NCBI GenBank assembly: GCA_013813755.1
Contig: JACCRD010000138.1
Coordinates: forward strand, 1 to 32,575
DNA length: 32,575 nt
Direction of reading: 5' to 3'
From: Acidobacteriota bacterium
GTDB lineage: Bacteria > Acidobacteriota > Blastocatellia > Pyrinomonadales > Pyrinomonadaceae
The translations under genes and the position numbers were made by a program. Positions 29,242 to 31,671 of this stretch are shown here, one piece after another; within the stretch, counting starts at the first letter, position 1, and each line of letters opens with the position of its first letter. The notes beneath the pieces were generated by a model. It saw only the letters and a program-made list of their open reading frames with translations, made no database searches and had not been told where the DNA came from.

Positions 29242-30276
29242 TTGTTTATTATAATTATATATTTCATTATATTCGCCGTCGCTTTTTTAGGGATAAAACT
29301 ATTTCTTCGCCTCAATAAAAAGTGGAATATTCTGGATGTCCCGAATGAAAGAAGTTCGCATACCAGACCGACTCCGCGCGGCGGCGGGTTAGTAATCGTT
29401 CTGGTTAGTTTGCTCGCTTACACAATTTATACAAATTTTTTCACACGGGAATTTTCATGGGCATATTTTGGCGGCGCGATTTTGATTGTTTCAATTAGCT
29501 GGCTGGATGATTTATATTCAGTTTCATCGCTTCTGAGATTCATCGTGCATTCGATCGCGGCCGGTTTAATCGTTTTGTATTTGGGAGAATCTCAAAGTAT
29601 ATACATTCCTTTTTATGGGCTTTTAAAGTCAAATTTTTGTCCGCAGATAATCATCTTCTTATGGATCGTCTGGCTCACCAACGCATATAATTTTATGGAC
29701 GGCATTGACGCTCTCGCAGGGATGCAGGCAGTTACCGCCGGACTCGGATGGTTAATGGTCGGAAAAATTCTCGGACAGGAAACGGCAGGTTTTTATGGCG
29801 GCGTGATCGCGTTTTCAAGTCTGGGGTTTTTAATCTTTAACCGCTACCCGGCAAAAATTTTTATGGGTGATGTGGGAAGCGCGTTTTTAGGCTATACCTT
29901 TGCGGTATTTCCTTTTCTTTTCTTCAGAGAGACTGTAATAGATACGGCGATTTTGCCGGTGGTTGCAATTCTTCTGGTCTGGCTTTTTGTGTTTGATACG
30001 GTTTTGACGTTAACTCGGAGACTTTTCAAACGAGAAAAGATTTGGCAGGCTCACCGCAGTCATATATACCAGAGGCTTGTGGCGGCAGGTGTCTCGCAAG
30101 TAAAGGTAACCGGTTTATATGTATTAATTTCGTTAACAATTATCATTTTGATTTTTATAAATTTAAGAATAAATAATTTCTGGAGCGCAACGATAATAAT
30201 TATTACTATTGAATCTTTGGGACTTTTTATTTTTTCCAGGATTAAAGAAAGAAGTAAAACTCCCGAATTGAATTAA
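29242..30276 (+). CDS. Undecaprenyl-phosphate sugar-1-phosphate transferase (MraY/WecA/WbpL-like)
   Basis: NVPNERSSHTRPTPRGGG-type motif (DVPNERSSHTRPTPRGGGLVI), WLDDLYSVS, NAYNFMDGIDALAG, FMGDVGSAFLGY, HRSHIYQRLV. Polytopic. TTG start at 29242 uncertain. Confidence 0.92.
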   Translation: MFIIIIYFIIFAVAFLGIKLFLRLNKKWNILDVPNERSSHTRPTPRGGGLVIVLVSLLAYTIYTNFFTREFSWAYFGGAILIVSISWLDDLYSVSSLLRFIVHSIAAGLIVLYLGESQSIYIPFYGLLKSNFCPQIIIFLWIVWLTNAYNFMDGIDALAGMQAVTAGLGWLMVGKILGQETAGFYGGVIAFSSLGFLIFNRYPAKIFMGDVGSAFLGYTFAVFPFLFFRETVIDTAILPVVAILLVWLFVFDTVLTLTRRLFKREKIWQAHRSHIYQRLVAAGVSQVKVTGLYVLISLTIIILIFINLRINNFWSATIIIITIESLGLFIFSRIKERSKTPELN

Positions 30277-31188: not shown

Positions 31189-31671
31189 ATGTCACAAAAT
31201 CCAATCGCCCGAAAAAACGGGCTGGTTTTACAGGAAATGCCGGATGAGCTTTTAGTTTATGATCTGGATACAAATAAAGCCCATTGTCTAAATCAAACAT
31301 CAGCTTTTGTATGGAAAGCGTGTAACGGTAAAAATACCGTCAGCGATATTTCCAGTTTATATGGAAATTACGCCGGTGATTCCGTCCCGGAAGATTTGGT
31401 TTGGCTGGCGATTGACCAGTTAAGTCAAAATAATCTTTTAGAAAACAAAATAGCTTCAAAATTGAATGGACAAACCAGACGTGAATTAATCAAGAAAATT
31501 GGTTTGGCTTCGGTTATTGCTTTGCCGCTCGTGGCATCATTGGCTGCTCCAAGTTCAGTATTAGCGGTTGCTAGTTGTCCAACAACAATGTGTGAGGGTA
31601 CTGCACAAGGCGGGGTATGTCAAAATTGTGCATGTAATGGTGCAGGTGCTTGTACTCCGACAGGAAATTAG
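31189..31671 (+). CDS. PqqD-domain protein with internal Tat-like segment and 6-Cys C-terminal tail (candidate RRE-fused RiPP precursor)
   Basis: aa 1-86 PqqD-like (NGLVLQEMPDELLVYDLDTNKAHCLNQTSAFVWKACNGKNTVSDIS...LAIDQLSQNNLLE). aa 96-128 TRRELIKKIGLASVIALPLVASLAAPSSVLAVA. aa 129-160 SCPTTMCEGTAQGGVCQNCACNGAGACTPTGN. ATG at 31189 has GAGGAG upstream; the TTG at 31171 in the ORF track is less likely. Confidence 0.85.
   Translation: MSQNPIARKNGLVLQEMPDELLVYDLDTNKAHCLNQTSAFVWKACNGKNTVSDISSLYGNYAGDSVPEDLVWLAIDQLSQNNLLENKIASKLNGQTRRELIKKIGLASVIALPLVASLAAPSSVLAVASCPTTMCEGTAQGGVCQNCACNGAGACTPTGN

Follow-up and report, generated by a model that had tools for sequence, protein, structure and literature searches.

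A single open reading frame near the end of the window (the whole 32,575-nucleotide stretch of DNA that was analysed) encodes an RRE-type PqqD domain, an internal export signal, and a variable core on one chain, and its identification as a one-chain precursor made of these three parts is well supported. The protein belongs to a large and widespread family whose hosts are soil and water bacteria, mainly Acidobacteria. We propose, as the probable reading, that the PqqD domain serves in cis as the recognition element of the precursor, that a kinase and a transferase act in trans to modify a conserved serine or threonine, and that Tat export and cleavage then yield a disulfide-stabilized mini-protein. 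The precursor architecture is apparently undescribed, as no account of an RRE-precursor fusion, or of a PqqD domain joined to a Tat signal, was found in the open-licence papers searched.

Architecture and extent of the family

The open reading frame (31189-31671, forward strand) starts with ATG, has GAGGAG upstream, and encodes 160 amino acids. It lies in a cassette at the 3' end of contig C208, from a draft genome of 2.0 Mb that is 72% complete (Table 1). Judged by the named relatives, this genome belongs to Pyrinomonadaceae or a nearby lineage of Acidobacteriota. The PqqD-like domain that an earlier note on this DNA had placed at residues 1 to 86 is borne out by a Pfam match to PF05402 (27.7 bits, cut-off 23.4, residues 21 to 56) and by its predicted RRE-type fold. 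An AlphaFold2 model, for which the input alignment comprised 48 relatives, predicts with high confidence a beta3-alpha3 arrangement over roughly residues 1 to 90, with three strands followed by three helices. The best PDB matches to this domain in Foldseek are lasso B1 RREs with leader peptides (5v1u, 5v1v, and 6jx3) and PqqD (5sxy). The Tat-like signal opens with T96-R97-R98 and closes with A126/A128, so the twin-arginine-like segment and hydrophobic stretch lie where the earlier note had read them. The tail, modelled at low confidence (pLDDT of about 50), starts at S129-C130, and its spacing of C130-x4-C-x8-C-x2-C-x1-C-x5-C155 agrees exactly with that reading.

Table 1. Coordinates of the cassette features in the window
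Feature	Position	Strand	Evidence
WecA/MraY-like glycosylphosphotransferase, end of polysaccharide locus	29242..30276	+	TIGR02380 1.2e-23
HprK-related kinase, candidate partner, 276 aa	30312..31142	+	TIGR04352 46 bits, cut-off 200
PqqD-Tat-Cys protein, family member of the window	31189..31668	+	160 aa
PqqD/RRE domain, aa 1-86	31189..31446	+	PF05402, AlphaFold2 pLDDT >90 over most, Foldseek
Internal Tat-type signal, aa 96-128 (TRRELIKKIGLASVIALPLVASLAAPSSVLAVA)	31474..31572	+	Invariant RR, invariant P121
Hypervariable Cys-rich core, 6 Cys	31573..31668	+	Cys parity, hypervariability, S/T conservation
Ser129, candidate modification site	31573-31575	+	S/T conservation in family
NTP_transf_5 nucleotidyltransferase, candidate partner, runs off contig end	31770..32575	+	PF14907 62.3 bits, cut-off 31.2

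Relatives with a PqqD domain and a tail had been suspected in related bacteria, and full-length homologues do occur in many genomes. A homologue, mostly full length, is present in 34 of 59 related genomes, and one genome, G034, carries 44 copies. The family set comprises 97 open reading frames taken from the surrounding DNA, of which 84 are full length; all counts "of 84" below use these. Across all 84, the twin arginines do not vary, nor do three residues of the PqqD domain (L34, G47, and L83) and two signal prolines, one of which is P121. A chance open reading frame or a mis-called fusion is ruled out by conservation across phyla and by cysteine parity; the many full-length homologues, the twin arginines, and the cysteine-rich tails all speak against chance.

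Scanning one genome per species with the family alignment as the query returned 63 named loci, while a contig scan with the single window protein as the query gave no match. Most of the loci are from Acidobacteriota (Blastocatellia, Vicinamibacteria, and Terriglobia), and named relatives come from at least seven other phyla; the remaining loci belong to Gemmatimonadetes, Chloroflexi, Myxococcales, Armatimonadetes, Methylomirabilota, Rokubacteriota, and an Acidimicrobiales bacterium. The PqqD-Tat-tail layout is common to nearly all 63, and a few matches (e.g., L181 and L183) are PqqD proteins that have no tail and fall outside the family. Across 119 evenly sampled Acidobacteriota genomes, the family is seldom found and is concentrated in Blastocatellia, the class of the window.

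One family member (L105:6259-7155) has a long low-complexity repeat inserted within the domain. A conserved stand-alone paralogue lacking the tail occurs at L066:6711-6998, L101:6404-6730, L106:6362-6673, and L107:2742-3005; it adjoins MurI-like and/or RNase PH-like genes in three of these four loci and is not accompanied by the kinase.

Candidate partner enzymes and the conserved Ser/Thr

The genes on either side of the open reading frame are candidates for trans-acting partners, a role that did not figure in the earlier account. The upstream gene encodes an HprK-related protein whose AlphaFold2 model (pLDDT of 95) matches the HPr kinase/PEP carboxykinase fold in Foldseek; alignment against the PDB by sequence gave no match, whereas the fold search did. 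In 35 relatives, His104, Gly124, Lys125, Ser141, and Asp142 never vary, and Glu143 hardly does. These residues resemble the His-Lys-Asp-Asp set described for lasso-peptide kinases (PMC9266682), and the active site is intact in sequence. The downstream gene encodes a transferase with a DVDLG motif.

Upstream of the kinase, a long polysaccharide synthesis and export locus (6413-30276, forward strand) runs up to the cassette and includes an SLBB exporter, a Wzx-like protein, glycosyltransferases, epimerases, and the WecA-like protein. The WecA/MraY-like gene is adjacent in about 15 family loci, and its part in the system is doubtful because it is not universal. Other conserved neighbours are polysaccharide and housekeeping genes. 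Among the conserved neighbour clusters, there was no lasso B2 protein, cyclase, radical SAM enzyme, YcaO protein, lanthionine synthetase, dedicated peptidase, or ABC exporter.

Some further genes lie near family members. Peptidase C25 (gingipain family) genes occur on the same strand at L051:7018-11400 and six other loci, at times 50 to 90 bases from a family member, and may be cargo, a processing enzyme, or coincidence. Genes for STPKs and LuxR-type regulators lie near some members in no fixed arrangement and are probably just common in these large genomes.

Both candidate partners track the family across genomes. The kinase is present in 33/34 family-bearing genomes and 0/25 others, and the PF14907 transferase is present in 31/34 and 2/25, respectively; these are raw counts, uncorrected for shared ancestry. 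The one family-bearing genome without a kinase is a 71%-complete draft, and G048 has a family member and the kinase with no match to the transferase. In G034, the 44 members occur genome-wide alongside a single kinase-transferase pair, which sits on a contig without a detected family member. Because the kinase is also unlinked to family members in G016, G043, and G014, its link with the family is more than operon inheritance.

The signal has the features of a Tat substrate throughout the family, namely, RR in 84/84, an h-region, and an AxA site. In a genome-wide search, several members exceeded the cut-off of the Tat model TIGR01409 (e.g., G036:C21:23634 and G043:C4:62558), and the window member itself gave no match. 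TatC was found in 32/32 genomes searched, family-bearing or not, and since it is nearly universal, its presence is not diagnostic. A long N-terminal extension ahead of a Tat signal is unusual.

The mature part holds one conserved residue other than cysteine. When members are aligned on the invariant P121, the -1 residue of AxA falls at position +5 and the second mature residue at position +7. The former is alanine in 74/84, and the latter is serine or threonine in 78/84, or in 83/84 if a shift of one residue is allowed; the remaining tail positions are 5 to 31% Ser/Thr. About 30/35 members of a second set, most of them from other lineages, likewise have Ser/Thr at mature position +2. In the window, the equivalent is Ser129, one place further on than this consensus. 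Generic Tat substrates provided a control: 30 loci from the same and related genomes match the Tat model, 20 of these were usable, and only 3/20 have Ser/Thr at this position (Fisher P of about 7e-12, with members that are not independent of one another). Alternatively, the conserved residue could be part of the signal-peptidase site.

The enzymes, the variable core, and the serine near the core N terminus are shared with linear polyphosphorylated peptides (LPP), the enzymes also with phosphorylated lasso peptides, and these precedents are the basis for the mechanism that we propose. The PqqD domain would remain cytoplasmic as a cis docking module for the HprK-like kinase and usually for the NTP_transf_5 transferase too, and the two enzymes would act in trans on every such precursor in the cell. 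The conserved Ser/Thr near the cleavage site would be modified in the cytoplasm, by phosphate and perhaps then by a sugar or nucleotide. Tat would then export the tail, signal peptidase would cut after AxA, and the released tail would mature as a disulfide-stabilized mini-protein. The variable tails may act outside the cell, perhaps at its envelope or in competition. The one-piece RiPP precursor of the earlier note is partly supported: the recognition domain, export signal, and variable core on one chain stand, and the product may be a modified RiPP.

A simpler account, which we regard as unlikely, is that the product is an exported disulfide-rich mini-protein, chaperoned or anchored by the PqqD domain until Tat export and left without covalent modification by the kinase and transferase, which would serve another substrate. 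The export signal and the cysteine pairing are strong by themselves, the kinase is nonadjacent in some loci, and the Tat system quality-controls folding (PMC6708511). Against this, the kinase is confined to family-bearing genomes, including those in which it is unlinked, and Tat substrates in general do not share the conserved Ser/Thr.

Hypervariable tails with even numbers of cysteines

The earlier note had suggested examining whether the RR-hydrophobic-Cys pattern is kept while the core varies, and the outcome is clear-cut: the twin arginines never vary, and the tails diverge nearly to shuffle level. Among the G034 paralogues, median identity is 0.44 in the PqqD part, 0.53 in the signal, and 0.29 in the tail, compared with 0.27 for shuffled tails. 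Cysteine makes up 15.5% of the tails versus 1.8% of the PqqD part in the 84 members, which have 4 to 22 cysteines per tail in 82 different spacing patterns.

This diversity bears on the improbable case that the PqqD domain is a working RRE for another, unseen precursor and that the RR-hydrophobic-Cys tail does no more than anchor it in the membrane, with a knob exposed. RRE domains have been described as discrete or fused to biosynthetic enzymes (PMC7470986), and the hydrophobic stretch could remain uncleaved. Nevertheless, shuffle-level diversity with an even number of cysteines would be needless for a mere anchor, the signal closes in AxA, one genome holds 44 copies, and no conserved separate precursor gene was found among the neighbour clusters (open reading frames of at least 90 aa).

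An even-cysteine rule, which the earlier account lacked, runs through the family. The number of cysteines after RR is even in 84/84 members and, when the named genomes are added, in 127/128 nonredundant cysteine-containing tails; the sole odd tail looks frameshifted. It also applies to 12/12 nonredundant tails from outside Acidobacteriota. Judged from parity alone, the simplest reason for an even count would be that the tail cysteines pair as disulfides, and the rule argues for disulfides over cysteine-based RiPP crosslinks. Metal binding is possible for cysteine-rich tails, and RRE domains usually accompany modifying enzymes, yet it is quite improbable that the cysteines bind metal or form nondisulfide crosslinks: parity is kept over the whole range of cysteine numbers and spacings, one tail consists of two thrombospondin type-1 (TSP1) domains, another matches the cystine-knot family PF06357 at its cut-off, and radical SAM, YcaO, and lanthionine synthetase genes are missing from the conserved neighbours.

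The tail with two TSP1 domains belongs to the Acidimicrobiales member (L179:5866-6753). A cysteine-rich core is the rule and not universal, since G070 members have cysteine-free tails rich in Thr, Pro, and Gly, and one Terriglobia member also lacks cysteine. Two proteins of another Acidobacteriota family (L185:2593-3420 and L186:5109-5801) combine PqqD, RR, and AxA with cysteine-free Thr/Pro/Gly repeat tails, and they share contig stretches with HprK-like genes.

The tails, including that of the window (31573-31668), are strongly depleted in lysine (about 0.8%, versus 6.7% in the PqqD part) and also low in other charged residues, with arginine at about 2%. A cationic antimicrobial peptide is disfavoured as the default by these lysine and arginine contents. 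A lipoprotein was ruled out as well, since the -3 and -1 positions misfit in most members and even parity needs the first cysteine to be counted.

Comparison with known systems

The earlier account had also not noted the conserved Ser/Thr at the mature N terminus or how near the family stands to LPP and to phosphorylated lasso peptides (PMC13381572, PMC10368454). It is very improbable that the family is a lasso-peptide system or the remnant of one: the RRE fold is nearest to lasso B1, and a kinase and nucleotidyltransferase are known in phosphorylated lasso clusters (PMC9266682, PMC10368454), but a lasso cluster was rejected because the B2 protease (PF13471) is absent from the window genome (72% complete), from G034, and from 14 others of the 26 genomes searched, and lies outside family loci where present, and the conserved neighbours include no cyclase.

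Several other systems share single elements with the family. HPr-rel-A (TIGR04352/TIGR04353) and SynChlorMet (ScmC/ScmD) have a broadly similar pair of kinase-like and PqqD-like proteins, but these are weak model matches with scores far under the curated cut-offs (46 versus 200 bits and 29.9 versus 100), and TIGR04353 matches 11/48 members weakly and the window protein not at all. Tat substrates share the (S/T/N)RR motif, a moderately hydrophobic stretch with proline, and the AxA site, whereas the family signal comes about 95 residues into the chain, after a folded domain, and its cargo is a small cysteine-rich peptide. Knottins and other disulfide-rich mini-proteins resemble the tails in the ICK-like C-C-CC-C-C spacing of 17/84 members and in the one PF06357 match, but most tails, that of the window included, do not fit knottin spacing.

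The closest known systems involve HprK-like kinases. LPP were described in May 2026 from the lpp cluster of Paenibacillus alginolyticus, which encodes a separate RRE (LppB), an HprK-like kinase (LppK), an NTP transferase (LppN), an SpI-like leader peptidase, and an MsbA-like transporter (PMC13381572). LppK phosphorylates core Ser3 and rejects Thr in its place, LPP cores are variable, and the genes are located in capsule loci (PMC13381572). For phosphorylated lasso peptides, the HprK-like BsfK phosphorylates core Ser3 of Bsf, is greatly accelerated by the PqqD-type RRE BsfB1, and accepts Thr (PMC10368454). PsmN adds a hexose to phosphoserine in pseudomycoidin (PMC9266682).

The family resembles LPP in combining an HprK-like kinase, an NTP transferase, and an RRE, with both enzyme genes adjacent in the window. 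Its precursors also have a conserved N-terminal part and a highly variable C-terminal part, and Ser/Thr at about +2 recalls Ser3 of LPP; however, Thr is frequent at this site, unlike in the Ser-only LppK system. Signal-peptidase-type cleavage, here predicted, is a further likeness, as is the setting, since the window cassette lies at the end of a polysaccharide locus, much as the LPP and paeninodin clusters of Bacillota lie in capsule loci. The family nonetheless lacks several defining features of LPP and is not filed among them. The RRE is discrete in LPP and part of the precursor chain in all family members, the SpI-like peptidase and MsbA-like transporter are not among the family's named conserved neighbours, the family signal is twin-arginine with cysteine-rich cores, and LPP are reported to be restricted to Bacillota, whereas the family's hosts are mainly Acidobacteriota. 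Also, the LPP leader motif YxxPxVLxHQxIxFETxxS is absent from the window protein and the family consensus. Phosphorylated lasso peptides (paeninodin, pseudomycoidin, and Bsf) share a PqqD-type B1 RRE, an HprK-like kinase, and a nucleotidyltransferase with the family; the differences are that no B2 protease or cyclase is linked here and that the precursor carries the RRE instead of being a short leader-core peptide.

If the proposed mechanism is true, the recognition element lies inside the substrate, and a single shared enzyme pair would suffice to modify and export any core placed on a PqqD-Tat unit. A built-in recognition element would explain 44 diverse cores in a genome with one kinase. 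The Ser/Thr at mature position +2 would be a compact target for probing uncharacterised HprK-like and NTP_transf_5 enzymes, and the family could be a mineable store of natural disulfide-rich scaffolds. By our comparison, the enzymes and logic match those of LPP and phosphorylated lasso systems, and for this reason the family would not be a new category. We hold as evenly balanced the claim that it forms a distinct RiPP class, with RRE, Tat signal, and disulfide core on one chain and one kinase-nucleotidyltransferase pair serving up to 44 exported phospho-modified mini-proteins. The family would carry the LPP and phosphorylated-lasso theme beyond Bacillota, into Acidobacteriota and further environmental phyla, and tie it to the Tat export of disulfide-rich peptides.
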